A stretch of 64,000 bases of DNA from Quadrisphaera sp. RL12-1S (lineage in GTDB: Bacteria; Actinomycetota; Actinomycetes; Actinomycetales; Quadrisphaeraceae), in the NCBI RefSeq assembly GCF_014270065.1, contig NZ_JACNME010000011.1:62001-126000 (forward strand). Direction: 5' to 3'. Below the pieces are notes generated by a model that worked only from the letters and a program-made list of their open reading frames with translations, did not search any database and was not told where the DNA came from. A program made the translations under genes and the position numbers. This document shows positions 16,092 to 62,775 of the stretch, piece by piece (within the stretch, counting starts at the first letter, position 1; every line of letters begins with the position of its first letter).

Positions 16092-17051
16092 TCACTTGAT
16101 CCCGGAGAAGCCGATGGAGTCGACGATGCGCCGGCTGAAGACGGCGAAGAGGACGACGACGGGCAGCGCCGCCAGCAGCGTGGCGGCCATGAGGCCGGCC
16201 CAGTCAGGCGTGCCCTGCGGGGTCTGCGACCTGAAGACGCCCAGGCCCACGGTCAGCACGCGGACGCTGCGGTCGCTGGCCACCAGCAGCGGCCAGAAGT
16301 ACTCGTTCCAGGCCTGGATGTACTGCAGGATCGCCAGCGTGATGAGGGGCCCGGACGCCATGGGGGCGATGACCCGGAAGAAGCGGCGCACGGTGCCGGC
16401 GCCGTCGAGCACGGCGGCCTCCTCCACCTCGCGCGGGATGCCGAGGAAGAACTGCCGCAGGAAGAAGATGGCGAACGGCGTCATGAAGAAGAACGGCAGG
16501 ACGATCGCCGCGTAGGTGTTGAGCAGGCCCAGGTCCCGCATGAGCAGGAAGTTGGGCAGCTGCGTGAAGATCGGCGGCACCATGAGCGCGGTGAGGAAGA
16601 CGAAGAACACCGCGTCGCGCCCGGGCCAGCGCAGCCGGGCGAAGGCGTAGGCGGCCAGGGCGCCGAAGAAGACCTGGCCCGCGGTGATGAGCGTGGCCAC
16701 CAGCAGCGAGTTCAGCAGGTAGAGCCAGAAGTCGATGGCCGCGCCGGAGCCGCCCTGGGCCTGCGCCTGCGCCGTCGTCGACAGGCCGAGCACGCGCTCG
16801 AAGGCCCCGAAGGTGAACCCGACCGGCAGCGGCGAGGAGGGGTTGGTGGCCAGCTCGGTCCCGTTGGACAGCGCCGTGCGCAGCATCCAGTAGAAGGGGA
16901 ACAGCGTGACCAGCATGATCAGGACCAGCGTGGCCCAGGCGACGACGCGGCCGACGCCCACGCGGCGGTCGCGCGGGGCGCGCGCGGCGGTGGGTCCGCT
17001 CGCGCGGGTGGGGCCGGCGGCGGCCGGTTCGACGGGCGTGGTGACGGTCAC
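16092..17051 (-). CDS. carbohydrate ABC transporter permease (MalG type)
   Basis: A CUT1 inner-membrane permease of 319 residues with six predicted helices. The EAA loop reads EEAAVLDGAGTVRRFFRVIAP, which contacts the ATPase. The N-terminal 35 residues are an Ala/Pro-rich cytoplasmic extension. The GTG start was chosen for AGAGGAG eight bases upstream and for MalG-like length. The gene sits between the other permease and the binding protein in one operon. Confidence 0.9.
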   Translation of the reverse strand: MTVTTPVEPAAAGPTRASGPTAARAPRDRRVGVGRVVAWATLVLIMLVTLFPFYWMLRTALSNGTELATNPSSPLPVGFTFGAFERVLGLSTTAQAQAQGGSGAAIDFWLYLLNSLLVATLITAGQVFFGALAAYAFARLRWPGRDAVFFVFLTALMVPPIFTQLPNFLLMRDLGLLNTYAAIVLPFFFMTPFAIFFLRQFFLGIPREVEEAAVLDGAGTVRRFFRVIAPMASGPLITLAILQYIQAWNEYFWPLLVASDRSVRVLTVGLGVFRSQTPQGTPDWAGLMAATLLAALPVVVLFAVFSRRIVDSIGFSGIK

Positions 17052-28285: not shown

Positions 28286-29122
28286 TCAGGACGGCGGCGC
28301 GGTGGCGGTGAGGCGCGAGGCGACCGCGTCCAGGCGCGGCTCGTCCACGGCTCCCCCGGACAGGTGCGCCGCGTCCTGCCGCTCGGCGTGCGGCGCCGCG
28401 GCCCGCTCCACGGCCTCCAGGGCCGTGGCCAGGCAGCGCGACCACGGCGTCGAGCGCGCGCCCGACGCCACCGGGGCGTCCACGAGGTGGAGCGCCTCGG
28501 ACAGCTCCGCCGGGAAGTGCCAGGCGGTCAGCGCGGCCGCCGAGACCTCGGTGTGGCACACGCCGAAGGCGGCGCGCTCGGCGCCGAGCAGCCCGCGGCG
28601 CCCGCCGCGGCGCACGCCGTCGTCGTCCAGCAGGGACCGGTAGGCGGCCGGGTCGTGGTGCGCCAGCACCGCCCGGCCCAGGCCCGCCAGCAGCCCCAGG
28701 CAGAACGCGTCGGGAGCAGGCACGCCCAGCAGGGGGGCGAGCTCGCTGCTGGCCACCGCGGCGGCCTCGGAGCGGGCCCAGGCGTCGTCGGGCAGGACCC
28801 CCTCGGCGTCAGCACCGGCGGCCGCCGTGGCGGCCATCGCGCGCACCGCGGCGAAGCCGACCACCGTGACCGCGAACGGCACCGTGCGCACGCGGCCGCT
28901 GAGCCCGTAGAAGGTGCTGTTGGCCAGGCGCGTGACGCGGGCGGTCAGCGCCACGTCCCCCACCAGGACGGCCGCGAGCTCGGCAGACCCCACGGAGCTG
29001 TCACCGGTCATGGTCACCAGGCGAGCAGCCACCGGTCTGCGGGAGGCCAGGTCGTCGACGACGTCGACGAGGGCCGCCAGCGCCGCCTCGGTGCGCTCCA
29101 GGGCGTCCTCGGGGTCGCTCAC
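28286..29122 (-). CDS. HDOD-domain protein
   Basis: A 278-residue cytoplasmic signalling protein with an HDOD domain over about residues 20-210 (VALTARVTRLANSTFYG, LLAGLGRAVLAH). HDOD domains resemble HD phosphodiesterases but lack the catalytic HD pair, so binding or scaffolding is more likely than catalysis. The GTG start overlaps the stop of the GGDEF-EAL gene by four bases, so the two are made together and the HDOD protein probably works in the same cyclic-di-GMP pathway. Confidence 0.8.
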   Translation of the reverse strand: MSDPEDALERTEAALAALVDVVDDLASRRPVAARLVTMTGDSSVGSAELAAVLVGDVALTARVTRLANSTFYGLSGRVRTVPFAVTVVGFAAVRAMAATAAAGADAEGVLPDDAWARSEAAAVASSELAPLLGVPAPDAFCLGLLAGLGRAVLAHHDPAAYRSLLDDDGVRRGGRRGLLGAERAAFGVCHTEVSAAALTAWHFPAELSEALHLVDAPVASGARSTPWSRCLATALEAVERAAAPHAERQDAAHLSGGAVDEPRLDAVASRLTATAPPS

Positions 29123-43604: not shown

Positions 43605-43640
43605 AGGCCCCCGACCAGCCGTAGAGCTGGTCGGGGGCCT
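43605..43640 (-). terminator. tRNA-Arg terminator left at the element junction
   Basis: A perfect 15-bp stem (AGGCCCCCGACCAGC) with loop CGTAGA, 21 bases beyond the 3' end of the tRNA remnant on the minus strand. It is the natural terminator of the original tRNA gene and is still on the chromosomal side. Confidence 0.85.
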
Positions 43641-43660
43641 GTGCGTCGCTGTCTCAACGA

Positions 43661-43702
43661 GCGGGCCCGGCAGGACTCGAACCTGCAACCTTCTGATCCG
43701 TA
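43661..43702 (-). tRNA. 3' half of tRNA-Arg at the element's left end (att site)
   Basis: On the minus strand the sequence runs CTACGGATCAGAAGG (anticodon loop and 3' anticodon arm, anticodon ACG), then T-arm GCAGGTTCGAGTCCTGC, then acceptor strand CGGGCCC and discriminator G at 43662. The 5' half is absent: instead of the expected 5' stem bases the sequence becomes CGTCATCC. This is a tRNA gene cut at the anticodon loop, the classical crossover position of tyrosine integrases. An intact copy should stand at the other end of the element, outside the window. The fragment itself is not a functional tRNA gene. Confidence 0.85.
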
Positions 43703-43917
43703 GGGATGACGCCTGGTGTCCGGTCACGTCCGGCCAGATGGCGCACGTTCCTGAGCAGCGGTTTCGTCTCGCGCCACCGTCCGCCTGGTCCACCTGGTGA
43801 GGGCTCGTGCGCGCACGTCCGCGGCTGATGTTGGCGCGGTGTGAGCGCACGAGCCCCTCCCCCGCGGTCGGTGGTGGCGATGACGCCTGCCCCGATCCCA
43901 CCGCGCCAGGAGCCCTC
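43703..43917. other. left-end non-coding region of the element
   Basis: Between the att remnant and the replication-type gene. It holds a perfect 12-bp inverted repeat GGGCTCGTGCGC (43801-43812 / 43845-43856, 32 bases apart), a short direct repeat of GTCCGG near 43718-43733, and two copies of GATGACGCCTG (43705-43715, 43879-43889). It probably contains the rep promoter and may hold recombination or origin sites. Confidence 0.5.
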
Positions 43918-44991
43918 ATGACCGACCGGTCGACCGAACCAGCCCCACCGAACGAGCCCGCCGTCGACGCCCTCGTCGTCGAGGACCAGCTCTTCTCGAT
44001 CGTCCCTGAGTGGGTCATCGAGGCCGACATCAGCGACCCCGCCTTCCGTCTCTACGCCCTGCTGCTCCGGTACGGCAACGGCAGCGGCGTCCGCATGCCC
44101 TCCCGCGCCACCCTCGCTGAGCGGCTGCACCGCTCCACGGACGCCGTCGACCGCGCGCTGCGCAACCTCGAGGAGAAGGGCCTCGTCGTCATCGAGCGGC
44201 GACGCCGCGGCGGAGTCAACCTCTCCAACCTCTACTACCTGCGCACCGCTCGCCCTGCTGCCGTCGACGGGCCTGATGGAGAGGGGGGTAGCCGCTCTTC
44301 TGCGGCCACTCCTCCCAGTACGTCTGGCGATCAGGCCACTCCCCCGCGGCAGAACCCGCCGGTCACAGCAGGGGGTGGCCGCACTTCTGCGGCTACTGGC
44401 CGCGAAACTGCGGCGGGGGTGGCCGCAGATCTGCGGCCCGACCCAGAGATCTCTACCCAGAGAAGTTCTCCTCCTCCCCCTCCATCCCCCGCACCGAGCG
44501 CCTCCCAGCGCGCTGCGCGGGAGGAGGAGGTGGAGTTCCTCCACAGCCTCAACATCGACCCCCAGGGAGGCCTGGACGTCATCGTCGAGATGTGCGCAGC
44601 GTCCCGCACCGCCCACGGACTCGGCACCGCGTGCTGGCAGGCGCCGCACCTGCTCGCCGCCCTGGAACTCGCCGTGCGACGGCGGCTGTGGCCGGCGCGC
44701 TTCGCCGCCACGGCGCTGCTGAAAGTCGCAGCGGACCCGGCCACCCGTTCCCCCATGCGCCTAGCCGAGGCGGGACCGTGGTGGGACGAGGCGTCCAAGC
44801 CCGAGCACGCCTCCGGCCTCAGCGCCGAGGACGTCGACGCCCTCGAAGCCCGGCTGCAGGCACTCGACGGTGGTCGGATGGCGCTGCAGCAGCAGGCTCG
44901 CGCCGAGCTGACGCAGGAGAGCATGCCGCTGACGCGCACCACGGTGCTGCGTCGCGCCTGCGAGATCCTCGATCGGCGGGCGGCCTCATGA
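43918..44991 (+). CDS. winged-helix replication-initiator-like protein of the element
   Basis: A 357-residue protein. Residues about 25-110 form a winged helix (FRLYALLLRYGNGSGVRMPSRATLAERL, then DAVDRALRNLEEKGLVVI) like those of plasmid or ICE replication and helix-turn-helix proteins. A Ser/Thr/Pro-rich linker (about 115-200) is encoded by DNA that carries four dyad repeats. The C-terminal 150 residues are helical. ATG start with AGGAG six bases upstream. Being first after the att site and next to mobilisation genes suggests a role in replication or control of the excised element; no Rep catalytic motif is visible. Confidence 0.6.
   Translation: MTDRSTEPAPPNEPAVDALVVEDQLFSIVPEWVIEADISDPAFRLYALLLRYGNGSGVRMPSRATLAERLHRSTDAVDRALRNLEEKGLVVIERRRRGGVNLSNLYYLRTARPAAVDGPDGEGGSRSSAATPPSTSGDQATPPRQNPPVTAGGGRTSAATGRETAAGVAADLRPDPEISTQRSSPPPPPSPAPSASQRAAREEEVEFLHSLNIDPQGGLDVIVEMCAASRTAHGLGTACWQAPHLLAALELAVRRRLWPARFAATALLKVAADPATRSPMRLAEAGPWWDEASKPEHASGLSAEDVDALEARLQALDGGRMALQQQARAELTQESMPLTRTTVLRRACEILDRRAAS
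44290..44438. repeat. four iteron-like dyads inside the replication-type gene
   Basis: Four 18-bp units with the form RGCCGCNNNNCTGCGGCN: 44290-44307, 44377-44394, 44398-44415 and 44421-44438. The last, GGCCGCAGATCTGCGGCC, is a perfect palindrome. The last three start 21 and 23 bases apart, about two DNA turns. They fall in the low-complexity linker of the encoded protein, so the DNA pattern rather than the protein seems to be conserved. Confidence 0.75.
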
Positions 44992-45093: not shown

Positions 45094-45208
45094 GTCGTCG
45101 CTGCCGCGCCGGGGTCCGCTCGCCGCGCCTCGCGGGCCCCAGCGGGGGCGACGTCGACCGGGCGCGGTCGTCGTCATGGGCTAGCGCCGGGTGGGGCAGG
45201 TGCGCGCG

Positions 45209-45664
45209 GTGAGCGCCGACCTGCAGCGTCCTGGTCGGGCACGTCGGTACACCCGCGCCCGCGACCGGCAGGTCAAGTTCCGGGCCACGGCCGAGGAGTA
45301 CGCGCTGCTGACCGAGGCCGCTCGCTCGGCGGGACTGACGCCATCGGGGTACGCCGCCGAGGCAGCACTGGCCGCTGCCCGGGGTGTGCGGGCACCGTCG
45401 CTGACTCCGGTCCGTGAAGCTCTGGTGGAGCTCATGGCCGCCCGTACGCAGGTGCGCCGGGTCGCGGTGAACGTCAACCAGGCCGTCAGGGTGCTGAACG
45501 CCACGGGAGAAGCGCCGGAGTGGCTGGCCGCCGCGGTCACCATCACCGACCGCGCCGTTGAGCGCCTCGATGGGGCGGCTGCCGAGCTGGTCCAAGCCGC
45601 GCGACGCTCTCAGCGCTCGGCGACCGCTCCCCCGCTGGCGCTGACCGCACGGGAGGGGGCGTGA
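45209..45664 (+). CDS. MobC-like mobilisation (relaxosome) protein
   Basis: A 151-residue basic protein with a ribbon-helix-helix-type N-terminal domain (residues about 15-55, RQVKFRATAEEYALLTEAAR, then GLTPSGYAAEAAL) and a helical C-terminus (VRRVAVNVNQAVRVLNATGE) typical of MobC accessory proteins. These bind oriT beside the relaxase. Its stop overlaps the relaxase start by four bases (GTGA). The GTG at 45209 is chosen for length and the GCAGG upstream; GTG 45191 is in frame. Confidence 0.8.
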   Translation: MSADLQRPGRARRYTRARDRQVKFRATAEEYALLTEAARSAGLTPSGYAAEAALAAARGVRAPSLTPVREALVELMAARTQVRRVAVNVNQAVRVLNATGEAPEWLAAAVTITDRAVERLDGAAAELVQAARRSQRSATAPPLALTAREGA

Positions 45665-46677
45665 TTGGCAAGGTCGTCCGCGGCAACGACATCGGCGGGC
45701 TGCTGCGCTACCTGTTCGGTCCCGGCCGGGCCGACGAGCACATCAACCCCCATGTCGTGGCGGCATGGGACGACGGCGTGGTCGCCGCCCACACTCCGGG
45801 GAACGACCCGCGACTCAAGCGCCTGACGGCCCTGCTAGAGCAGCCCCTGGCCGCGCTCGACAACCGCCCCTCACCCGCGGTGTAGCACTGCCCTCTGCGC
45901 ACGGCCCCGGGAGATCGAGAGCTGACGGAGGCTGAGTGGGCTGACATGGCTGCCGAGGTGCTGCACCAGACGGGTCTGGCCCCTCGGGGTGACCTCACCG
46001 GATGCCGGTGGGTGGCTGTTCGCCATGCCGACGACCACATCCACCTCGCCGTCACGCTCGCGCGGCAGGACGGACGGCGGGCCCGCGCGTCCCATGACTA
46101 CGCGCGGCTCGGCGCGGCGTGCCGGACGGTGGAGGAGCGGTACGGGCTGACGGTGACACCGGCCCGGGACCGGACGGCACCGAAGCGGCCTACGCGGGCG
46201 GAGAACGAGAAGGCTGCGAGACAAGGGCGCGCGGAGACGCCGCGGCAGCGGCTGCGTCGGGAAGTCCGGAGGGCGGCGCTGGGCAGCAGTGACCTTGGCG
46301 GCTTCCTCCAGCAGCTGGAGGCGGCAGGGCTGCAGGTCCGCCTGCGCCACAGCGGGCTGGACCCAACCACGGTCACGGGCTACTCCGTTGCGGATCCAGG
46401 AAACCAGACGGCAGCCGGCGACCTTGTCTGGTTCGGCGGCGGCAAGCTGGCGCCGCACCTTTCCCTACGTCGTCTTGTTTCGAGTTGGAACACAGTCCCG
46501 CTAGTGACGACACCGACAGTCTCCACGACACTGCAGCGTCGCGACCTATCACTGGCTAGGGTTTTAAAGCTTACGTCGCAGGTCGTGGCGAGCGCTGAAC
46601 GTGGCAATCTCGCTGCAGGCTCAGCCCTGGCCGCTACAGCGCTCCTCAGGTCCGGCGCCCTGCGTCGTCGGCAATGA
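45661..46677 (+). pseudogene. MOBP-type relaxase interrupted by an in-frame amber codon
   Basis: A relaxase/mobilisation nuclease that would nick and lead the DNA during conjugation. Residues 1-74 (IGKVVRGNDIGGLLRYLFGP, then ADEHINPH) end at TAG 45883-45885. The same frame continues without any shift: HCPLRTAPGDRELTEAEW, then GLAPRGDLTGCRWVAVRHAD with the metal histidines in RHADDHIHLAV. Relatives have Trp at the stop, in V-W-H-C, so TGG to TAG explains it. The C-terminus ends 339 codons from the start, shorter than usual (about 500), and its last 60 codons use AT-richer codons, as if truncated by the cargo insertion. It is probably inactive unless TAG is read through. Confidence 0.85.
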
Positions 46678-46782: not shown

Positions 46783-47994
46783 TCAATGCTCTAGACGTTG
46801 GCAGGCGCAAGCGACGTCTGAGGGAGTTGTCATCGAACTAACATGCTTCAACTCGGCCGAGCCATAGTCGCTTGTTGCATATCGCTTCAGAAAATCCTCA
46901 TAGGCCTTCATCTGCGATAGGTACTTTTTGTCCGGACAGGCCTTTCCGCTGGTGCTCTTAAACTCAATTAGATGCACCCTGGAAACATTTCCATATGAGG
47001 CGAGCATAACATCGAATCGACGACCCGCCGCCCGCTCCGGACCTTGCGTGCCACGAAGCCTCGAGAGATGATCAACGCAAAATTTCTTAAGTCCCCCCTG
47101 GCCGGGCGGCGGCACCATTTCGCGGTCCTCCGCGCCAAGGATCCAATAGTCGCGATCCTCGGCCGAATCATGACTCCTGTAGTCGAGGTCACCCTCGACC
47201 AATACATGATGAGGGACATACTGCGCAAGCAAATTGCGTAGATGGCTAACCTGGTTGCGGGTGGTAATGAGTACACGTAGCCAGAGGTTCTGCTCGTACT
47301 CAACCAGGCCAAGCGAGTCCGACAAGGCTGACTCTTGATGTGCCTTATGGCAAGCCATCACCGCCTCGGCATAACTATACGAATCAGCCGGCCAAGCATC
47401 TCCTGCCGTTTCCAATATCGCGTCAAATCCTTGACTGTCAATCAGGTGCTCGAAGCCGCGCGGCCCCGCTTCGCCATCCGCCTGAGCGCGCCGGGCCAGG
47501 ATAAGTACGGACGCCACCCTTGCGGTTGCGACGACCAAGCCAACATCTCCCTGAATTTCCGCGCCAAGATGAATGTGGCCCGTCACGAACCCTGGGTCTT
47601 GGCCTCGAATGAAACCTTGCACGACGTCCTCAGCCAAGGAACCCACGAGGACGTGTTCAGATAACACCTCTGGATAATTTGATCCGGCAGCCGGCCCACC
47701 CAACTTGGTGCTCTCGTCACGGGCCTGCCTCAGGAACCTGGCCGCAGCACCTGGGGCGGAGGTAAGCGTCTTGGCCCGCAGGGGGTTGGGCCAAACGACC
47801 TGGATGGGGGGATGCGATTGACTCACTAGGGGTGACAGTCGACTTCGGAGGCCGGGGGGGAGAGAATTGATGCCAACAGTCTGCAACTCTCGCTGAAATT
47901 GATGAATCCAGTTGGCGCTCCCTCCCGAGTAGTCGGCAAATTGCGCGCGCCGAATCCATTCTCGGAGCTGCTGATCCGCGCGCACGGTCGGCAT
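46783..47994 (-). CDS. PD-(D/E)XK nuclease-like protein, partner of the GHKL ATPase
   Basis: No named family recognised. A 403-residue soluble protein. Its C-terminal 80 residues carry the pattern of a PD-(D/E)XK nuclease: Asp328 in RRFDVML, Glu344-x-Lys346 in VHLIEFKST, and Gln361 with Tyr365 in YLSQMKAYEDFL. The first 320 residues are of unknown fold, mainly helical with few long hydrophobic runs. ATG start with AGGGAG eight to nine bases upstream. It begins 46 bases after the GHKL gene stop on the same strand, so they form one transcript. Codon use is clearly AT-richer than the flanks. A nuclease-type effector or subunit of a defence system is inferred from motif and context. Confidence 0.7.
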   Translation of the reverse strand: MPTVRADQQLREWIRRAQFADYSGGSANWIHQFQRELQTVGINSLPPGLRSRLSPLVSQSHPPIQVVWPNPLRAKTLTSAPGAAARFLRQARDESTKLGGPAAGSNYPEVLSEHVLVGSLAEDVVQGFIRGQDPGFVTGHIHLGAEIQGDVGLVVATARVASVLILARRAQADGEAGPRGFEHLIDSQGFDAILETAGDAWPADSYSYAEAVMACHKAHQESALSDSLGLVEYEQNLWLRVLITTRNQVSHLRNLLAQYVPHHVLVEGDLDYRSHDSAEDRDYWILGAEDREMVPPPGQGGLKKFCVDHLSRLRGTQGPERAAGRRFDVMLASYGNVSRVHLIEFKSTSGKACPDKKYLSQMKAYEDFLKRYATSDYGSAELKHVSSMTTPSDVACACQRLEH

Positions 47995-48040
47995 TCTCGA
48001 GACTCCCTATCCGTCGGGGTTTAGCAAATAGGTTGCAATG

Positions 48041-50101
48041 CTACTCGTTGACGAGCGCCGCCAATATAGGCAAGCCCAGCTTGTCGAAAAAGGCCCTATT
48101 CCTCTCAGTCGCTGAGTTAACGAGCCCGTCGAAACTGATCACTTCAATGTAGGCGCGGTGGCGATCATTGAATCCGAAGTAGCCGAGATTGTCATGAGTA
48201 GGGCGCAGATTTGACACGTCGCACCTCTCGATCATTTTCTCGGTAAGGTCCGCGATGATGTAACAGAAAGCGGGGGGCTCATGCGTCGGCGGGATGGGCC
48301 TGCCCGCCGCCGTCTTTACTCCACCCTCTCGAATTCTTTTCACGTAGTCCAGGCACTGCGTAATGGGGTTCTTGTCCTCAGTTGCATCCTTGCGCATTGG
48401 ACGTTTGATCTCAACGACTACAATTGAAGTTAGCGGCAGCCTCTGACCCTCGGCTGCCAATACTGGCGCATCGACTAATCTCGTGGCCACAATGTCAGGT
48501 TCGGTTGTGGAGTCCGACATGGTGATGGGCATGCTGCGAAGCGTCTTATCTGACGCGAGGTAGTCGTGAAAGGCCAGTCGCTCATCGACAATCCATAGAT
48601 TCGAACCATCCATAGCGAACTCACTGGAGTCCTTCCGCATGGGAACGATGAGTGAGTGGATCGCGTCTTCACGGCTGTACCTACCCTCTTGATCGGCCCG
48701 GATCAACCTCGCCAGGAGGTCAAGAACCGTGCGTCGTCGTGACACGTAGGCAGCCAAGTCCGACTGATTGATTTCACTAACCGTCGAGAGATAGTCCGCC
48801 AAGCGTTCCGGATAATCTTCGCTAGCACCGGCATCCGCCTCAGCGAAAATTTCCTGTCCGCGAGCCAAAGCCTCAGATTCAATTCTCTGCAGATGCCCAT
48901 GCAGCTGCATCTCTAGTTCATGATCTTTGATCGCCGGATCTACGGTGACCCCACGCTCTTCGATCTGCCTCAAGATTGGCCGATACCGCGGCGCCCGTTG
49001 ACTAACATAAGCATGGACACGCTCCTTTCCCTGCTCTTTAGCCAAGCGCAGAGACTCCTGCAAAATATCGCCAACCTCAAGAAGAACGGCGGCCCTAATC
49101 TCTTCTAGAGTCGGATCGCCCGCAAAAGCCTGACCGGCGACGCGGTCCGCGATGTCGAAGGCCGTCCTGTCCGAACGTACGCGCCCGTCAAGGTAGTCAG
49201 AAGTCAGGTAGCAGGCATAGACAAAGTCACCAGATCTAGAATTCTTGAGCTTTCCATGGAGGCCCGGCAATTTGCCGTTGAGACTCTCATCAAGCACCAC
49301 CCGACTTCCCGCACACCAATAAAGACGCGGCAGCGCATTTCGAGTCGACGGCTTGAGTCGGAGGTTGAGCATCTCGAAAGCCCGCTCCCCCACCTCAATT
49401 CTCGAACGAGAGAAGTCTGAATCGACGAAGTCATCCATTAGATCAACAAGAGCAATCGACTCGTCGTCATCCTTGATGACCATCGTAGGCGCACCGCCAG
49501 CCCGCAGGAAGTACCAAATGCAGTGCTCGAAGACTTCGCGCGCGATAGCGTCAACCCCCTTGGGGGCCTGCTGCTGAAACGACTTCTTGAAGCCGTCAAG
49601 ACTTACGACCGTTCCTGGCTGTGTGAGTGCGTCGATCTCACTGTCATGTTCCACCTCCCGCTCAATAGAGAAGCGGAACCGCCGTCCTTTGAGGCTGCCG
49701 CTCTCGTCTTTGAAAGTGCTGTGGATTGAAACCCTATCAAAGGCCTTGAGCCACAGAAGGCGCCCTACTCCTCGGCAACCAAGGTTCGATTTGAAGTCAC
49801 TGTCGAGTGTTTCGAAAGACAGCATGTTCTCTCTTGTGAATCCGACCCCGTCGTCTTGAACACTGAAGCCTGTGATCGGCTTCAACGGGGTGCGCCCAGG
49901 GCCGGTCTGGCCGAGGTCGAGCTCGTCTTGAAGATCACGGTGCACCTGGACCTCAATGTGCCCCGGTGTAGCCGCCCCCTCTGGTCGAGCGTCGATCGCC
50001 TGGATGGCGTTCACGATCGCCTCTTGGAGGGGAAGGAGGGCGTGGCTCTTCGGCAGGCTCGTGTTGCGAACACGGCCCGCGAGGGAGGTCGTCAGCGCCA
50101 T
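48041..50101 (-). CDS. GHKL ATPase fused to a PD-(D/E)XK nuclease-like domain
   Basis: A 686-residue protein. The N-terminal part has the GHKL (MutL/Hsp90/MORC-type) ATP site: Glu27 and Asn31 in LQEAIVNAIQAI, the Asp-x-Gly-x-Gly box in VQDDGVGF (Asp84, Gly85, Gly87), and the glycine-rich lid GCRGVGR (108-114). A long middle region (about 200-525) is helical. The C-terminal domain shows Asp536 in TTEPDIVA, Glu564-x-Lys566 in VVVEIKRP, and Gln582 in ITQCLDYVKRI, a complete PD-(D/E)XK set. ATG start with AGGAGGGGAG directly upstream; the frame stays open to 50221. It lacks a methyltransferase partner. It is lower in GC than the element around it. Confidence 0.8.
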   Translation of the reverse strand: MALTTSLAGRVRNTSLPKSHALLPLQEAIVNAIQAIDARPEGAATPGHIEVQVHRDLQDELDLGQTGPGRTPLKPITGFSVQDDGVGFTRENMLSFETLDSDFKSNLGCRGVGRLLWLKAFDRVSIHSTFKDESGSLKGRRFRFSIEREVEHDSEIDALTQPGTVVSLDGFKKSFQQQAPKGVDAIAREVFEHCIWYFLRAGGAPTMVIKDDDESIALVDLMDDFVDSDFSRSRIEVGERAFEMLNLRLKPSTRNALPRLYWCAGSRVVLDESLNGKLPGLHGKLKNSRSGDFVYACYLTSDYLDGRVRSDRTAFDIADRVAGQAFAGDPTLEEIRAAVLLEVGDILQESLRLAKEQGKERVHAYVSQRAPRYRPILRQIEERGVTVDPAIKDHELEMQLHGHLQRIESEALARGQEIFAEADAGASEDYPERLADYLSTVSEINQSDLAAYVSRRRTVLDLLARLIRADQEGRYSREDAIHSLIVPMRKDSSEFAMDGSNLWIVDERLAFHDYLASDKTLRSMPITMSDSTTEPDIVATRLVDAPVLAAEGQRLPLTSIVVVEIKRPMRKDATEDKNPITQCLDYVKRIREGGVKTAAGRPIPPTHEPPAFCYIIADLTEKMIERCDVSNLRPTHDNLGYFGFNDRHRAYIEVISFDGLVNSATERNRAFFDKLGLPILAALVNE

Positions 50102-50233
50102 GATGTCTCCCCTCCTAGCGTTTGGCGCGACCCTATCGACGGGCACTGACTGCGCCGGGGCGCGAGTGGCTTCGAGGGCCCAGTGGCTCTTCCTGGCGGC
50201 CCTCGACGCCCGCCTGACCACCGCACGAGGACC
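50102..50233 (-). promoter_or_regulatory. upstream region of the ATPase-nuclease cassette
   Basis: A 132-base gap between DUF4913 and the GHKL gene. On the minus strand a -10-like TAGGGT lies about 30 bases before the ATG; no convincing -35 is seen. The cassette may have its own promoter or be read from the secretion operon upstream. Confidence 0.35.
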
Positions 50234-50647
50234 CTAGAGCTCGTGGCGCTCTGGTGAGCAACTCACGAACGGCCCTCTTGCTCCGAGCAGGACAAGCAGT
50301 TGGGGATCAAGAAAGTTGTGGAACCAGGTGGAGAGCCCGAGCGCCGGGTCGCGGCGGAGAGCCTTCCACGAGCACCACAGAGCATCGAGCCGCACGACGG
50401 CCTCGCGGTGCTCTTGCCACTTGGAGCACCATCGAAACTCTCCACCCAGCGGGCGCCAGAAGGTGGCGCAGAAGTAGTCATGGACCCAGCTGTCAAGGTC
50501 GGGGTAGTCCTGCTCGCCCGTTGCGGCAACGCTTGAGCGGCCGCCGAGACTGGCGTCGGTGAGTGCGGCCTCGTCTGCGCGAAGCTCCAGCCGTGCCAGC
50601 CGGGAGTCGACTTCGGCCTGCCACCGCTCACTGTGCACATCGGTCAT
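50234..50647 (-). CDS. DUF4913 protein
   Basis: A 137-residue protein of the DUF4913 family, found almost only in actinobacterial conjugative elements next to the coupling protein gene. Conserved features: WVHDYFCATFWRPLGGEFRWC, HREAVVRLDALWCSWKAL, STWFHNFLDPQL and GPFVSCSPERH at the C-terminus. The start ATG overlaps the coupling-protein stop (ATGA), so it is translated with it. Function unknown; probably a transfer accessory. It ends with TAG. Confidence 0.85.
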   Translation of the reverse strand: MTDVHSERWQAEVDSRLARLELRADEAALTDASLGGRSSVAATGEQDYPDLDSWVHDYFCATFWRPLGGEFRWCSKWQEHREAVVRLDALWCSWKALRRDPALGLSTWFHNFLDPQLLVLLGARGPFVSCSPERHEL

Positions 50648-52395
50648 CGGTCGCCTCGGCGAGCCGACTCCTCGTAGTAGGGCTCCAGACGCACCTGGGC
50701 CACCCGCAGGCCGGTGGCCAGCAGGAGCGCCGTCCCCTTCGGCATCGCCCGCAGGTCCTCAGGAGGTAGTAGCCGCTGGCGGCGCAGGGAGGTCGTCACC
50801 GACCGCGATGCGCGCTGACGTCCGTCTCCGCCGCCGTCGGCGTAGGAGCGCACCGCGACGTCGTGCTCACCCACCAGGCGGCTGACGTCCTCGGCGAACT
50901 TGGCGTCATCGATCCCTGCACCAACGAGCTTCACCGTGGCCGCCGACCACAGCGAGTCCATGCCGGCCTCGCCCCAGACGCGGACGCCCTGGCGGTAGGA
51001 CTGCAACACCGTCAGTGGCACCACGCCGCGCGACCCGAGGTGGGAGTACAGGTCCGGCAGGTCGGCGATCTTGCAGATGTTCGCCGCCTCATCCAGCACG
51101 ACGACCAGCGGCGGATCGAGTCGCGCACCGGCGGACCGCTCCGCAGCGCGGATGCCGTCGTGCATCAGCCGGTCCACCAACGCGGCCACCAGCGGCGCCG
51201 CGGTCCCGGCACCGTTCTTGGACAATAGATGCAGCGTCTGCCGCGACGTGACGAACGCAGCGGTGTTGAACTCCTCGCCCCCCGTGGCGCCGCTAATCCG
51301 TGGTGGCACCAACCAGCGCATGATGACCGGGTCCCGCAGCGCGGAGGCAGCGGTGCGTGCGGTCTCATAGACCCCGTCACGGGTCTCGACGGCGCCGTTC
51401 TGCCATCCGACGACCGCAGCGGCCGCCGCATGGTGGCCGTGCGCGCGCAGGAGGTTGGCCGCCGTTAAGACGGCGGGCTCGGTGAGTGACTCGTAGACCT
51501 CCGGCAGCGATCGCTCTGACAGGGCAGCAGCCATCAGGAGGTTGGCGAGCAGGTCGCGGGCTGCGCTGGACCAGAGGTCGCGCCCGTCGTTGTCACCGCG
51601 GATCTCGGTGATGAAGTGCCCGGCCAGCCGGGTCGCCTCTTCGACGGTGGTGACCCCACGCAGAGGGTCCCACCACATCGCCTGCGTCTGCCCGATCACG
51701 CCTTGGGGGTCGAAGACCCATACCCGCTCACCGGTCTAGGCGGCCCGCTCGGCGGCGGTGGCCTCCCATAGGTCCGGCTTGATCGAGGTCGCCAGGACCG
51801 GGCCAGGGGCGTTACGGACGATCGGCACCGTCAGCGTCGTCGTCTTGCCGGCCCGGGGCGCCATCACCGCCAGCAGCACGTCCTCCCACGACGCCCGCAG
51901 CCGCGGACCGCGAGGTACGAGCACGCCTAGCGCCAGGCCGACGTCATCAGCAGTCACGTCGCGTTCGGGCAGCTGCGCCAGCGACCGGCGCAGGCGTCGA
52001 GCTCGCTCCTTCGCGGGGGCCGGGGTGAGCGGCGCCACCTCGTTCGCCTGCGCAAGGCCCTCGACGGGGGCGAGCACTCGCCGGCCCAGGACCGTGAGCG
52101 CCATTCCTGCCGCAGTCACGAGGGCAAGGAGCAGGAGGCTCACGACGACAACGGCCCACGTCGGTGTCCCCGGCCACACCGCCTCGACGCCGTCACCAAC
52201 CAGGAGCCGCACGAAGTTGACGCCGAACGGCGGTGACATCCACCCGTTCCCAGCGAGCCAGGACGCCGTCGTCCCGGCCAGCCGTACCAGCCATGCGAGC
52301 CCGACAATGCCCCACACGACTCCCAGCAGGGCCATCGGCAGGCCGAGCCCAGGCGCTGCAGCGCCGCGGGGCTCCAGGGCGCGGGTCACGCGCAC
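50644..52395 (-). pseudogene. VirD4/TraG-type coupling protein interrupted by an in-frame amber codon
   Basis: The type IV coupling protein that would carry the relaxase-DNA complex to the secretion channel. Codons before the stop encode two membrane helices (about 20-40 and 78-103) and Walker A in MAPRAGKTTTL; the frame then meets TAG at 51736-51738 and continues in the same frame with GERVWVFDPQGVIGQTQAMW. Later parts are intact: LVVVLDEAANICKIADLPDL (Walker B) and VPLTVLQSYRQGVRVWGE. CAG or CGG is the expected codon at the stop. Without readthrough the ATPase would be cut just after Walker A. The GTG start is at 52395; its stop overlaps DUF4913. Confidence 0.85.
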
Positions 52396-52605: not shown

Positions 52606-52860
52606 CTACGCGGCGTCGACCGTGTCCCGAAGGGCCTCAGCCGCCTCGACCGCCATGTCGTGCTCGTGGCGCTCCAGGTCGCCATCGTGAAGCTCCGACA
52701 GCACAGAACCGGTGACGGGGTCGGTGAAGACGGCGGAGCGACGCAGATACCGGCTTCCGCAGTGTTCACAGTCGTCGACGACCTCAGATAGTTCGACGGA
52801 TGGAATCTTCGCTGCGTCAAGCCCGCCAAATAACTCGGGAGTGTGCACAATAATCCCCAT
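52606..52860 (-). CDS. small hypothetical protein with a CxxC motif (84 aa)
   Basis: No family recognised. The product is acidic and soluble, with one CEHCGSRYLRRS motif near residue 35 that could bind zinc with other ligands, and a helical, Glu-rich C-terminus (DLERHEHDMAVEAAEALRD). The ATG at 52860 lies just after a perfect AT-rich palindrome, which suggests autoregulation or control by a repressor. It sits alone between the coupling protein and the VirB4-like gene, and may be a small regulator of transfer; that is inference. Confidence 0.55.
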   Translation of the reverse strand: MGIIVHTPELFGGLDAAKIPSVELSEVVDDCEHCGSRYLRRSAVFTDPVTGSVLSELHDGDLERHEHDMAVEAAEALRDTVDAA

Positions 52861-52868
52861 CGTAGTAT

Positions 52869-52881
52869 TTGTATGATACAA
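52869..52881. promoter_or_regulatory. AT-rich palindrome TTGTAT-G-ATACAA
   Basis: A perfect 13-bp palindrome eight bases upstream of the 84-residue gene, in one of the few AT-rich spots of the element. It has the form of a small-repressor operator overlapping a promoter. Confidence 0.55.
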
Positions 52882-53002: not shown

Positions 53003-54577
53003 TCAACTGAAGAGCGCCGGCTCGTCGACCGACGTCGGCCGACCGGTGGGGCGCACGGCGCTATCGGTGTCGTACAGCCGCGCTTCGTCGCCGACGTACT
53101 CCAGCTCTACGGGGATGCCGACCCGCTGCCCGGTCTTGATGAGGTACTTCCCCCGCCCGGGGTGGCGAGCGCCGGCCTGCCAGGACTCCGGCGCCGACCA
53201 GGATGCGACCATCGCCCGCTCCTTGTCTGACAGCGGCACCACCGCCGAGACCGCGTCCAGCTCCCGCGGCGGCAGCCCGGCCAGCACGGTGACCGCGTTG
53301 CGCTCGACGAACCCGCGGGCCTTGGCCCGGTCCTCCTCGGTCGGCAGCGCGGAGAGGTCGTCGAGGGAGTGCGTCGCCATCGCGTGAGCGACGTCGCGGC
53401 CCCGGTAGACCCGGGTGAGCGCGTCAGCGTGGTCGACCAGCCCGGGCGCTCCCCGCAGGGCCCGCCACAGCTCGTCCATGACGGCGAAGTACTTGCGCCG
53501 CGGCGCCAGCCCGGCCTCGGCCAGTGCGGTGGAGGCGTCTATGGTCGCGAAGCCGTAGGACCAGGTCGACAGCATCGCCGCGGCGACCAGGGTGTCCCCG
53601 GAGGCAGCGACCGCGGAGATGTCGACGCTGACCGCCGGCGCTTTCAGGTCGATGGGCTGCGTCGTGGGCCCGTCGAAGACGCCCCTGAGAGAGCCCTCGC
53701 ACAGCAGCGCCAGGGTCTGGCGCAGCTCTTTGGTCTCGGCGCGGTAGGCGTCGTGGTCGTCGAGCTCGGAGGCGGCGACGAGCCGGTCGGGGCCCTCGCG
53801 GACCACTTTGAGCACCTCGGGGATCGTCGGGGACATCTCCTGGCGCTGCGCCGCGGTCATGCCCGCGGGGAGGCGACCGCGGGGCTTGCGGTCGGTGAGC
53901 AGGTCGACGGCCGCGCCCAGGACGACCTCCTCGCCGTTGGTCATCCCGCCGTGGCGGCGGACCAGGGAGCACAGCGCGAGGGTCGCCGACAGGCGCCGTC
54001 CGCGGACCTCCAGGCGCAGCCGGTCAGCAGCCTCCCCGCTGAGCTGGCTGAGCGCTGAGCCCAGCGGCCCGGCGTCCAAGGGGTTGATGCGGTCCAGGCC
54101 CCGTCCGACGCGGATGACCTGCCCGCCGGCGGCCTCGACGATGGCGGAGTAGTCCGGCTTCAGGTCACCCAGGAACAGCGGCCGCACGCCGAAGGCCATG
54201 AGCCCGCGGGCCAGGCGCTTCAGCGCCGCGGACTTTCCGGTCCCGGGCTGGCCGAGCAGCGTCAGCCCGCGGTTGGTGACCAGGCCGGCCTCGAGCCAGG
54301 CGAAGGGGTCCAGGCAGACGACCTCGCCCCACATCATGTGGCGCCCGAAAGGCACCCCGACCGACGGCGCCCCGGAGCCGGCGACGAAGGGGAACAGGCC
54401 GCAGGCCTGCACGGTGGTGGCCTGATACTCCGGGGCGACGCCGGCGTGGGCGAGTCGCCCGGCGCCGCGGTCGCGCCAGCCCCAGGCGGGGGCGACGACG
54501 TCGGGCAGCGCCGGCCGGGCTGCCGCGCGGGCCGCCCTCGCCGTCGTCCTGCTCTCTCGACGGACGGCGCGGCTCAT
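53003..54577 (-). CDS. VirB4/TraC-like conjugation ATPase
   Basis: A 524-residue ATP-binding protein of the actinobacterial conjugation type that powers the type IV channel. Walker A is GQPGTGKSAALKRL near residue 110, with the following FLGDLKPDYSAIVEAAGGQ and GRGLDRINPLDAG typical of VirB4-like proteins. Walker B is seen in KYFAVMDELWRAL, followed by ATHSLDDLSAL. The ATG at 54577 overlaps the SCO6880 stop (ATGA). Unlike the relaxase and coupling protein, it has no premature stop. Confidence 0.85.
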   Translation of the reverse strand: MSRAVRRESRTTARAARAAARPALPDVVAPAWGWRDRGAGRLAHAGVAPEYQATTVQACGLFPFVAGSGAPSVGVPFGRHMMWGEVVCLDPFAWLEAGLVTNRGLTLLGQPGTGKSAALKRLARGLMAFGVRPLFLGDLKPDYSAIVEAAGGQVIRVGRGLDRINPLDAGPLGSALSQLSGEAADRLRLEVRGRRLSATLALCSLVRRHGGMTNGEEVVLGAAVDLLTDRKPRGRLPAGMTAAQRQEMSPTIPEVLKVVREGPDRLVAASELDDHDAYRAETKELRQTLALLCEGSLRGVFDGPTTQPIDLKAPAVSVDISAVAASGDTLVAAAMLSTWSYGFATIDASTALAEAGLAPRRKYFAVMDELWRALRGAPGLVDHADALTRVYRGRDVAHAMATHSLDDLSALPTEEDRAKARGFVERNAVTVLAGLPPRELDAVSAVVPLSDKERAMVASWSAPESWQAGARHPGRGKYLIKTGQRVGIPVELEYVGDEARLYDTDSAVRPTGRPTSVDEPALFS

Positions 54578-56130
54578 GCGAGCACCCGCCCAGCGACGTG
54601 TGCGGGGTGCAGCCCCGCGGGCAGCGTGGTGGCGAAACCGAGGGCTTGGGAGCCCCACAGCCGGCGCAGCCGGACCTTGGACTGGTCGGCCCGGGCCTCG
54701 GTGTCGGCGATCGCCGCGGCCAGCGCCGTCGGGTCGTCCCCGTCCAGCACCGTCGTCGTGACGTACAAGCTCATGAGCACGACCCCGGCCCCGAGCGCCT
54801 CCTCACGGGCCGCTGCCACGGCGCGTTCGCGGTCGGCGATGTCGCGGGCCGTCGCGTCGCGACCCTGGCTGCGCCGGTAGGCGTCGCGGAACGCGGCAGC
54901 GTTCACCTGGCTCTCCAGCACCCGGGCCGCGGCGCCTGCGGGCAGCGGCCGGAACAGCAGAGTGACCCGGCGCGGGAACCGCCCCGGGGAGAGCAGCCGA
55001 GTGAGCACGTTGGCGGTGACCTGCTGGCGGGGTGCCTCGTGCCAGGCCCAGGAGACCGAGGTGCCGGAGTCGTGGCGGTAGGTGCCCCAGCTGTCCTCGG
55101 CGGCCACCGGGCCGGCCTCGCCCCAGGCGAGCAGCGGGCAGGTGCCCGCGCCGGAGGAGGAGGGGAGGGCGTCGTCGAGCAGGGCGTTGACGTCGCCGCG
55201 GCTGGCGGGGTCGAACGCGGTGCGCACCGTGCCGGCGAGCTCGGCGGCACTGGCCCGACCGAGGACGGTGACGCCGCACTCCCCGAGCGCGGCCTCCATG
55301 CCGGTCAGGGCGCGGGCGACCTCGGCGGTGCGGTCGGCGAGGTCAGGCAGCCGCTCGCCGGCGCGGGAGGGGTCGAAGGTGATGGAGACGCGGGTGTCGA
55401 CGTCGGCGGCCGCCGCGGGCGAGCGCAGGATCAGGTCGCGCAGCAATGCGAGGACGTCGGCGGGTGCGTCCGGGTGCAGCCGGGAGGCGACGTTGCGGGC
55501 CAGCGTCGAGCCCGGCTCCGGTGCGGTGTCGACGGTGACGGCGACCCAGGCCACCAGCGGGTCGAAGCCGCGCGAGGCCAGCCAGGAGTGCCACGAGGCG
55601 ACCCACCCGTCAGCGGCGTCGCTGTCGACCAACCACGTCGAGGACGACGCGCAGCGCAGCGTGGCGGTGAGCATCCCGGAGCGCTCGTCATGCACCAGCC
55701 CGAACGCCCCGCCGCGACCGTCGGCCACGGACAGCAGCCGCGTCGTGGCCAGGGCTCCGGGGAGCTGCCAGGCAGAGGGGTGCTCGACGACGACGCCTGA
55801 CCGCAGGCTGGTGTACCCGCGCATCCGCGCCCAGGTGAACTGCCCGCGGCGCAGGGCGACGTCGGTCAGCGGGGCGCCGTCGAACCGCGCAACGGTCAGG
55901 GCCGCGACGAGCGCGCAGGGCAGCGCGACGACGATCCCAGCCCGCGCGGAGGTGCTGAGCGCCAGCAGCGGCAGCACGATGCACGCCAGGACGACGGCGG
56001 TGGCGAGGGCGCCGAGGCCGAACAGGCCGATGCCGCGGGTACGGCGCCAGCCGCTGTAGGTGCGTGGTGGCTGCGCCGCCATCGAGGCCGTCGACGTCGT
56101 CGTGTGCGGTCGCATGGCGGTGGTGCTCAT
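54574..56130 (-). CDS. SCO6880-family conjugation protein
   Basis: A 518-residue membrane-associated protein of the SCO6880 family, which occurs directly upstream of the VirB4-like ATPase in actinobacterial type IV clusters. Two hydrophobic helices lie near residues 35-80 (GLFGLGALATAVVLACIVLP), in a PrgI-like position; the rest is cytoplasmic and resembles the N-terminal half of VirB4 (VNAAAFRDAYRRSQGRDATAR). With the downstream gene it may form a split VirB3/VirB4 unit; this is inference. Both its ends overlap neighbours by four bases. Confidence 0.82.
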   Translation of the reverse strand: MSTTAMRPHTTTSTASMAAQPPRTYSGWRRTRGIGLFGLGALATAVVLACIVLPLLALSTSARAGIVVALPCALVAALTVARFDGAPLTDVALRRGQFTWARMRGYTSLRSGVVVEHPSAWQLPGALATTRLLSVADGRGGAFGLVHDERSGMLTATLRCASSSTWLVDSDAADGWVASWHSWLASRGFDPLVAWVAVTVDTAPEPGSTLARNVASRLHPDAPADVLALLRDLILRSPAAAADVDTRVSITFDPSRAGERLPDLADRTAEVARALTGMEAALGECGVTVLGRASAAELAGTVRTAFDPASRGDVNALLDDALPSSSGAGTCPLLAWGEAGPVAAEDSWGTYRHDSGTSVSWAWHEAPRQQVTANVLTRLLSPGRFPRRVTLLFRPLPAGAAARVLESQVNAAAFRDAYRRSQGRDATARDIADRERAVAAAREEALGAGVVLMSLYVTTTVLDGDDPTALAAAIADTEARADQSKVRLRRLWGSQALGFATTLPAGLHPAHVAGRVLA

Positions 56131-57383
56131 CGGTTCTCTCCTGCGGAGGTGTTGGTCATGGCGCCGCCGGCGATGTGGCTGGCGGCGACGGTCGCGTCGT
56201 AGGCGCCCTTGGCGGCCGCGACGCCTGCACCGGCGACCCCGCCAGCGGCACCGGCGCCCGTCGAGCTGCTCGCCGCCGTGGACGCAGCACCAGCGCTGGT
56301 ACCGGACACCGTGGAGGACGCAGCGGTGGTCGAGGCGGCCCCGCTGGCCGCACCGCTCGCCCCACCGCCGGAACTGCCAGGCGCTGCGTAGGCCGACGTC
56401 GCTGCCGGACCGAGGTCGGCCTTCATCTGCGTGGCGTGAGCACCCGCGTCACCACCGGAGCCCGAGCCCGCACCACGGAGTGCCGAGACCCCCTGTGCGC
56501 CGGCGGCGGCGAGTGACAGCGTCGTCGACAGGCCGCGGCTCGGGCCGCCGCTGTCTCCGGTGGCCCAGCTGAAGAACCGCATGAGCACCGGTAGGGCCAC
56601 GACGCTCATCACGATCATCGACAGGCCGACGATGACGGTGCGCGGGTCACCACCGGCCTGCAAGGAACCCTCCGGCCCGGCCGTCATGCGCAGCGCGACG
56701 GCGTACACGAGGGCTGCGACGGGCTTGTAGGCGATCAGCGCCAGCATCCAGGCGAGCACCTTGCCCAGCCACGGTCGTCCGTAGCCGGTGACGTTGCGGG
56801 CGGCGGCGAGCACCAGCAGACCGGCGAGGACGACGACGGCGCCCTCGCGGAACATCATCAGCACGGCCTGGATGAGGCCGGCGAGCATGACGAGCAGGCC
56901 GATGACGATGGCTGCACCGGCGGAGTTGATGCCCTGCAGCCCGGCCAGGGCCACGAGGCGCTCGACGACCTGGCCGCTGGCGGCACGGTCGAGCACCCAG
57001 GAGGAGAAGTCGTCTCCGGCGCGCAGCGCCAGGGCGGAGCCCGTGATGCCGACGGCGGCCCACAGCGCGAGGGTGACGAGCCCGCGGCCGATGTCGAGCA
57101 GCGGGTCCAGGCGGTGGGTGATCGCCATGCGCACGCCCTGCCAGGTCACACCTGCGGCGGCGATGACGAGGGAGAGCCACCAGACGTCATCGCGGATGGC
57201 CAGGGCGGGGGAGTTCGCGACGTCGATGGCGGGTACCTCGACCCACCAGCCGATGGTGGTCTTGATGACCCAGGTCGCGCCTTCGCGCATGGCGTCGGCG
57301 AAGGAGTTGCCGAGGCTGGCGGTCGCCGCGTCTGCGACGGCCCCGACCACGCAGGCAGGCGGGTTGAGCGGGTCACACGGCAT
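56127..57383 (-). CDS. TrbL/VirB6-like conjugal transfer membrane protein
   Basis: A 418-residue polytopic membrane protein with about six or seven helices between residues 65 and 290 and a long Ala/Ser/Gly-rich hydrophilic C-terminus (about 300-418). This matches the TrbL/VirB6 inner-membrane channel component. It begins MPCDPLNPPACVVGAVADAA, a start often seen in actinobacterial homologues. The start shares one base with the stop of the upstream gene (TGATG), inside the secretion operon. Confidence 0.75.
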   Translation of the reverse strand: MPCDPLNPPACVVGAVADAATASLGNSFADAMREGATWVIKTTIGWWVEVPAIDVANSPALAIRDDVWWLSLVIAAAGVTWQGVRMAITHRLDPLLDIGRGLVTLALWAAVGITGSALALRAGDDFSSWVLDRAASGQVVERLVALAGLQGINSAGAAIVIGLLVMLAGLIQAVLMMFREGAVVVLAGLLVLAAARNVTGYGRPWLGKVLAWMLALIAYKPVAALVYAVALRMTAGPEGSLQAGGDPRTVIVGLSMIVMSVVALPVLMRFFSWATGDSGGPSRGLSTTLSLAAAGAQGVSALRGAGSGSGGDAGAHATQMKADLGPAATSAYAAPGSSGGGASGAASGAASTTAASSTVSGTSAGAASTAASSSTGAGAAGGVAGAGVAAAKGAYDATVAASHIAGGAMTNTSAGENR

Positions 57384-58243: not shown

Positions 58244-58513
58244 TCAGACCACCGCCCCGACGATGGCGGCGGAGAACGCGATGACCGTGAGCCCGCCGAG
58301 CACCCATGGGATGCCCGCTGCGCCGTCGGCGGCGACCGCGGAGCGGTTGCGTCGCCCGATCATCATCATGATCCCGCAGATCAGCAGGCCAGCGACGCCG
58401 GCGACCAGGCCGCCCCACTTCAGCCAGCCGAGCAGGGTGTTGACCGCGTCACCGAGCCCTGGTGGGGCCACGGGGGCGGGGTTGGGGATGGTGGCGGTCA
58501 GCAGCCAGCTCAC
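58244..58513 (-). CDS. small two-helix membrane protein, VirB2/pilin-like candidate
   Basis: An 89-residue protein with two hydrophobic helices (about 32-52 and 66-88) joined by a short basic loop MMIGRRNRSA. The N-terminal 25 residues are Pro-rich. The size and two-helix hairpin match VirB2/TrbC pilin-like subunits or the analogous small protein in actinobacterial systems. The GTG overlaps the stop of the ParA-like gene (GTGA). It lies in the secretion operon. Confidence 0.6.
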   Translation of the reverse strand: MSWLLTATIPNPAPVAPPGLGDAVNTLLGWLKWGGLVAGVAGLLICGIMMMIGRRNRSAVAADGAAGIPWVLGGLTVIAFSAAIVGAVV

Positions 58514-59266: not shown

Positions 59267-59650
59267 ATGACGACCCCCACCACTTCCGAGGCCACCGAGC
59301 TGACCGAGGGCCCAACCACCGAGATCGCGCTCAAGGCGGCGCGGCAGCTGCTCACCGCGCTCGCCCAGCACGGGCGCGACGAAGGTGAGCGCACCCGCGC
59401 CGAAATCGCCCTGGCCCACCTCGACGACGTCTGGCCCCTGCCCGTGCCCGTCAACACAGCGGATGTCGAGGACATCGACGAGCGCGGCGCCCTCCTGCTC
59501 GACGAAGCGATGAGCGCCCTGGTCACCGTCGTCGCCACAGCCCCGGAGGCGCAAGCGCGTGCCCGCGGGCTGCGCGCGCTGGAGCTGCTCACCTCCACCC
59601 TCGAGTTGCCCGGCGACATGCCCCCTGGCACTCCTCCGGCGCAGCAGTGA
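59267..59650 (+). CDS. hypothetical element protein (127 aa)
   Basis: No family recognised. A soluble, acidic, largely helical protein with no signal peptide: KAARQLLTALAQHGRDEGER and ALLLDEAMSALVTVVATAPE suggest two long helices. ATG start; it shares the divergent promoter region with the secretion operon. Its stop overlaps the next gene by four bases (GTGA), so the two are probably made together. Confidence 0.6.
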   Translation: MTTPTTSEATELTEGPTTEIALKAARQLLTALAQHGRDEGERTRAEIALAHLDDVWPLPVPVNTADVEDIDERGALLLDEAMSALVTVVATAPEAQARARGLRALELLTSTLELPGDMPPGTPPAQQ

Positions 59651-62439: not shown

Positions 62440-62775
62440 GTGTCGGTGGCCGGGGCAAGCATCGCGCCCGTGGCCGGAGGGATGGCGAAGGAGAGTGCAC
62501 CGCTGCCCGCGTGAATTGTCGCCGCCAACACGGAGCGACGGCTCGCGGCAGAGAAGGCGATGCGCCAGCGGCGACCGCCGGGCAACCCGTTCGTGTGGGT
62601 GGTCGGCTCGGAGGCTGACTACCCGGGGATCGTGGTCGATCGTCGCCGCGTCGGTGCCGGCTGGCAGATCTACGTGGCCTAGCCCTCACCGCGGCACGAG
62701 CTGATGCAGCAGTGGCTCGATGCCGAGCAACTGCTGCCCTACGAGAGTCCGCGGGCGAGTCCGTCGGCATCGTGA
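62440..62775 (+). pseudogene. decayed small gene with two in-frame stops
   Basis: One reading frame from GTG 62440 to TGA 62773-62775 (about 111 codons) is broken by TGA 62512-62514 and TAG 62680-62682. The parts read as coherent protein: NTERRLAAEKAMRQRRPPG, NPFVWVVGSEADYPGIVV, GAGWQIYVA, then HELMQQWLDAEQLLPYES after the second stop. CGA to TGA and TGG or CAG to TAG would explain both. No family recognised. The ending TGA overlaps an ATG at 62775. Confidence 0.55.

Follow-up and report, generated by a model that had tools for sequence, protein, structure and literature searches.

We analysed a window of 64,000 nucleotides, meaning the whole stretch of DNA under study, from the draft genome of a Quadrisphaera sp. 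(G000:C11:62001-126000; 4.62 Mb in 27 contigs, completeness 100, contamination 0.36). The window carries an integrated island that was compared with its counterparts in the nearest relatives possessing the element, namely Quadrisphaera granulorum DSM 44889 (G003), Quadrisphaera sp. INWT6 (G004) and a third genome, G002. The record of G002 (locus L093) is labelled 'Streptomyces sp. NP160', which is probably wrong, as the genome search places it in Quadrisphaera. One island end is marked by an attachment-site repeat at 43630-43705 on the minus strand, a 3′ piece of tRNA-Arg(ACG), of which 73 of the 76 bases align to the end of the tRNA-Arg(acg) gene on another contig (G000:C14:28827-28900; 74 columns, 94.6% identity). 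On C14, an intact tRNA-Arg gene (28859-28931) lies beside a match to PF00589 (28151-28669), representing a tyrosine integrase. In G004, both island ends reside on the same contig (146.6 and 204.5 kb, ~58 kb apart), and the sequence flanking the island on C14 is colinear with this genome. By analogy with G004, the two ends of a single island very probably lie on contigs C14 and C11. To the left of the island, the chromosome is colinear with G003 and G004.

The region adjoining the repeat encodes on the plus strand an intact helix-turn-helix protein (43807-44991), an intact NikA/MobC-like relaxosome accessory protein (45191-45664) and a MOBP-like relaxase (45661-46677). The genes for transfer follow on the minus strand: an intact DUF4913 protein (50234-50647), a type IV coupling protein of the TraD/TraG/VirD4 type (50644-52395), an intact VirB4-like ATPase (53003-54658) with 95-97% identity to the three close relatives, and an intact SCO6880-family transfer protein (54574-56130). 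They are accompanied by an intact polytopic channel protein (56127-57383), regarded as VirB6/TrbL-like from its position and character without a family match, and an intact small pilin-like protein (58244-58510) with a weak TrbC/VirB2 match below the cut-off. The VirB4, SCO6880, VirB6-like and pilin genes share 90-99% identity with those of G002-G004. Two small genes of unassigned function are located on the plus strand, one of 127 codons that is intact (59267-59650) and one at 62482-62775. A 91-codon gene at 52606-52881 has a match in G003 only.

Between the relaxase and the DUF4913 gene, the window contains an accessory low-GC cargo of two genes (46783-50221, minus strand). No homologue of them was found in the relatives' loci, where other cargo sits, and neither PADLOC nor Pfam provided a confident name; a weak HATPase match was seen. 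In G003 the same slot harbors a Lamassu-like set (L035:11287-14973) with strong LmuA and LmuB and weak LmuC matches, and in G004 it harbors unnamed genes (L038:6819-9600). The slot thus looks like a hot spot for defence genes. Closely related transfer genes are associated with both tRNA-Arg(ACG) and tRNA-Arg(TCT) (43630-43705 versus L037:1089-1132 and L034:5510-5553), which suggests that integration modules have been exchanged.

The coupling-protein frame runs from 52395 to 50644 and comprises 584 codons including the final stop. Its sole internal stop is codon 220 (51736-51738), which reads CTA on the plus strand and TAG on the minus strand and splits the gene into 219 and 363 codons. A lone amber codon after the Walker A motif, as described in the initial annotation, was thereby confirmed. 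The TAG lies 36 codons after the Walker A lysine (codon 184) and ahead of the Walker B stretch, which starts with codon 431. The part 3′ of the TAG matches PF12696, PF10412 and PF02534 (the TraG-D_C, TrwB and T4SS-DNA_transf families). Reinitiation beyond the stop was considered and rejected: the first listed in-frame start, a GTG at 51699, follows 12 codons downstream and by eye lacks a clear ribosome-binding site, and a protein starting there would leave Walker A on the other fragment.

A second amber codon in a core transfer gene, likewise claimed before, is present in the relaxase at 45883-45885, codon 75 of 338. It falls between Y17, which we take to be the tyrosine motif, and a HADDHIH stretch, presumably metal-binding, that starts at residue 122. 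The third interrupted gene is the small gene at 62482-62775, which is open over 96-98 codons in all five relatives examined and in the window contains a TGA at codon 11 (62512-62514) and a TAG at codon 67 (62680-62682). Further substitutions adjoin these stops, which argues against single base-call errors.

The initial annotation had expected Gln or Arg in place of the amber codon, which was not borne out by the relatives. At the coupling-protein site a serine is encoded in all four close copies (TCG, TCG, TCC and TCT), i.e. in G002, G003, G004 and a second copy on contig C6 of the same genome. Four more distant copies differ (Asp twice, Glu and Arg once each), so this column is variable. At the relaxase site, TGG (Trp) is found in 5/5 relatives that align there.

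Altogether, four nonsense codons affect three of 16 conserved island genes, defined as genes kept in at least one of G002-G004 (~4,900 codons, without the two cargo genes). Only genes with a confirmed frame were counted, as a stop-to-stop census misassigns frames in overlapping high-GC ORFs. In the other 13 conserved genes, including the open channel genes, no internal stop or frame change was seen. The island retains attachment repeats in a tRNA gene, an integrase beside the intact tRNA, and a VirB4-type ATPase with channel genes in open frames. The coupling-protein gene is present with a TAG between Walker A and Walker B, and the relaxase gene is present with a TAG as codon 75; because a working relaxase is missing, we filed the island as a degenerate integrative and conjugative element (ICE).

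Searches of the genome for spare copies, covering PF03432 (MOBP) and PF08751 (MOBF) relaxases and TraG-D_C proteins, yielded only the TAG-interrupted PF03432 relaxase, no PF08751 match, and two TraG-D_C loci, the gene at 50644-52395 and the broken copy on C6. The latter belongs to a ~10-kb remnant from the same family of elements (L033/L034, G000:C6:75445-85553) located between tRNA-Arg(tct) and its repeat. Its coupling protein contains a TAG six codons upstream of the window's TAG site and two frame changes, codons 1-240 of its VirB4 gene are missing, and the remnant yielded no match to a relaxase.

We then asked how TAG is read in this host. None of the 45 tRNA places found by Rfam, all of which were read by ARAGORN, has a CUA anticodon; the Rfam search threshold bounds this count, and a divergent suppressor tRNA could fall below it. 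Release factor RF1 is present above its cut-off. A pattern search for suppressors returned three places, none of them a suppressor tRNA. Two on C6 resembling CUA turned out to be tRNA-Arg(tct) according to ARAGORN, with the frame off by one, and its attachment-site copy; the third is not a tRNA by ARAGORN. Outside the Rfam set, ARAGORN proposed a tRNA-Ser(gct) in the window (16239-16318, minus strand), which is probably spurious; a different tRNA-Ser(gct) lies on C14. TAG is also the predicted end of the DUF4913 gene and of one cargo gene of the island, and the relaxase of G002 ends in TAG. Among the single-step stops expected from the affected codons TAG is the commonest, accounting for 54-60%, and at least three TAGs among four stops are expected with a probability of 0.37-0.48; three TAGs and one TGA were observed. 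A stop mutation in a GC-rich genome is thus expected to appear as a lone TAG, for which recoding is not required.

To estimate the age of the lesions, substitution rates were compared. The coupling-protein part 3′ of the stop displayed dN/dS values of 0.06-0.09 versus G002-G004, compared with 0.06-0.08 among those three. Lineage-specific nonsynonymous and synonymous changes in the coupling protein were 15:48 in the window and 37.3:117.7 summed over the three relatives; in the relaxase they were 4:14 in the window and 2:10, 10:27 and 3:11 in the others. For the coupling protein, a simple counting model limits the unconstrained share of the terminal branch to at most ~8-9% (one-sided 95%). Since dN/dS is unrelaxed in the interrupted genes, the loss is most likely recent. 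A recent horizontal spread of the element was considered as well. Synonymous distances to the three relatives were 0.23-0.28 for VirB4 and 0.49-0.56 for the coupling protein, and flanking chromosomal ORFs showed a median dS of 0.46 versus G003 and 0.43 versus G004 (15 ORFs per comparison, ORFs of at most 60% identity dropped). As the element's dS is not clearly below that of the flanking ORFs, this idea was dropped.

The distribution of the stops was compared with chance. If four nonsense codons were scattered at random across the 16 genes, they would strike both the relaxase and the coupling protein with a probability of ~0.08 and affect no more than three genes with a probability of 0.41. 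These figures were calculated with 4,896 codons, the gene at 59267-59650 being taken as 139 codons, while the true sum is ~4,884. Together with the third gene and its two stops, the value of ~0.08 means that the relaxase/coupling-protein pair needs no special selection. We therefore rejected the idea that the pair of ambers reflects selection, given that an unrelated island gene carries two nonsense codons as well. The proposal that transfer had been lost, perhaps by selection to fix the element in its host, is retained in its first part, as both DNA-processing genes are cut and neither an intact spare in the families searched nor a suppressor tRNA was found; its second part is not supported. 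Drift rather than selection appears to be behind the loss.

Damage to coupling proteins was also scored among homologues, covering stops, frame changes and the Walker A lysine in 84 proteins, made up of the 80 best among 171 from the species collection and four further loci from this study. Three of the five Quadrisphaera copies are damaged compared with 0/79 other homologues (p = 1e-4). The three lesions differ: the TAG in the window, the TAG plus two frame changes in C6, and a Lys184 to Glu exchange in G002 (L037:8401-10137, also in L093), where the Walker A sequence GKT has become GET at a position occupied by lysine in the other 83 coupling proteins. All lesions map within codons 175-220 except one frame change near codon 452. 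When subjected to the same screen, 14 of 70 VirB4 loci and 5 of 64 SCO6880 loci were flagged, in most cases, we believe, owing to stops where the alignments with distant homologues end. A frame change is present in two VirB4 genes (L098 and that of C6), so channel genes are subject to lesions too. Among the ~150 coupling-protein matches listed from an order-wide search (396 genomes), 6 contain internal stops (hand count), three of these from the window's own genome. Among the relaxase matches listed, four have internal stops: the window's gene with its TAG and three fragments (28-38% identity) interrupted by TAG or TGA. A distant coupling-protein homologue from a separate set (L197, G171:C6:246577-247977) has a lone TGA in this same region after Walker A, at a position that is apparently Trp elsewhere. 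The excess of coupling-protein damage in Quadrisphaera copies is a weak pattern and serves as a lead only.

Several explanations other than plain loss of transfer were weighed against these data. That TAG is a sense codon in the host or on the element is suggested by nothing but its share of three among the four internal stops, which is the majority expected anyway; it is exceedingly improbable and was rejected on the basis of the tRNA set without a CUA anticodon, the presence of RF1, the one internal TGA and the predicted gene ends at TAG in the DUF4913 and cargo genes. With the genome in draft form (27 contigs), an error of sequencing or assembly at one or both codons would be conceivable. 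It is nevertheless made very improbable by the number of separate nonsense codons, four within a single island next to 13 clean conserved genes, by the completeness and contamination values and by the extra substitutions beside the stops of the third gene. Only slightly more credible is a leaky read-through of both UAGs, which would supply some full-length coupling protein and relaxase and permit transfer at a low rate. Occasional read-through would give purifying selection of the kind seen in the unrelaxed dN/dS of both genes, and the best argument for it comes from a Frankia element for which excision is reported although its integrase gene contains an in-frame stop (Faln1739; PMC3218068). 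On the other hand, read-through would be needed in two genes simultaneously, in a host with RF1 and no suppressor tRNA found, and two different stop codons interrupt the third gene. Moreover, the close relatives have no stop at either site, which means that the stops are not a conserved regulatory device.

A different proposal is that selection has repeatedly favoured loss of the coupling ATPase, with retention of the channel, in this family of Quadrisphaera ICEs. The three different lesions in five Quadrisphaera copies and their concentration, with one exception, in codons 175-220 point in this direction. Yet the window copy is an ascertained case and that of C6 belongs to a remnant; without both, the comparison falls to 1/3 versus 0/79 (p = 0.037). 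The coupling proteins of G003 and G004 are intact, and channel genes were flagged in the same screen, among them the two VirB4 genes with a frame change. We consider this proposal unlikely, although it deserves more weight than read-through. Slightly less likely again is its extension, according to which the coupling ATPase is repeatedly lost by different mutations with the channel remaining under purifying selection, so that the channel may serve the host or the element in some way independent of DNA export. Alternatively, loss of the coupling protein might protect donors, e.g. from phages that use the coupling protein.

Taken together, the results make it very likely that a tRNA-Arg ICE in Quadrisphaera sp. 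has recently lost self-transfer by point mutation and now decays. According to this model, the TAG would end the coupling protein after 219 residues and part Walker A from Walker B, so that no complete ATPase could be made to pass the relaxase-DNA complex on to the channel. The relaxase would be cut after 74 residues, ahead of the HADDHIH metal-binding stretch. The element's own proteins would then neither nick nor pump it, leaving a resident, decaying island. Transfer itself appears to be truly lost. This is ordinary mobile-element decay and no new genetic code. The island offers a snapshot of a conjugative element ceasing to move, with nonsense codons in the DNA-processing genes and channel genes that are seemingly untouched. 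The sister species G003 and G004, in which the coupling-protein and relaxase genes are open at the same tRNA site, provide a good comparison set.

A literature search over titles and abstract openings retrieved no title on this Quadrisphaera element. T4SS-based ICEs integrated in tRNA genes are known from Actinobacteria, as described in parts of PMC3218068. The Quadrisphaera island resembles them in its attachment to a tRNA gene with an integrase alongside, its relaxase, its VirD4-type coupling protein and its VirB4-like ATPase. It differs in that the survey, as outlined in those parts, targeted MOBF relaxases, whereas the relaxase here is MOBP-like, and in that the relaxase and coupling-protein genes are interrupted. 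The same paper contains an account of the Frankia AICE Faln1739, whose int gene has an in-frame TAA and for which excision was detected without a suppressor tRNA, as if the interrupted gene were still functional. Both cases share a lone in-frame stop in a gene of an actinobacterial mobile element without a suppressor tRNA. In contrast to Faln1739, where the TAA lies in the integrase gene of an element that excises, the Quadrisphaera stops are TAGs in the relaxase and coupling-protein genes. Loss of conjugation genes from mobile elements is common according to a review (PMC11389934). Like the non-autonomous elements treated there, the Quadrisphaera island derives from a conjugative ancestor shedding part of its transfer genes; unlike them, it has suffered this loss via point nonsense codons, in both the relaxase and the coupling protein.
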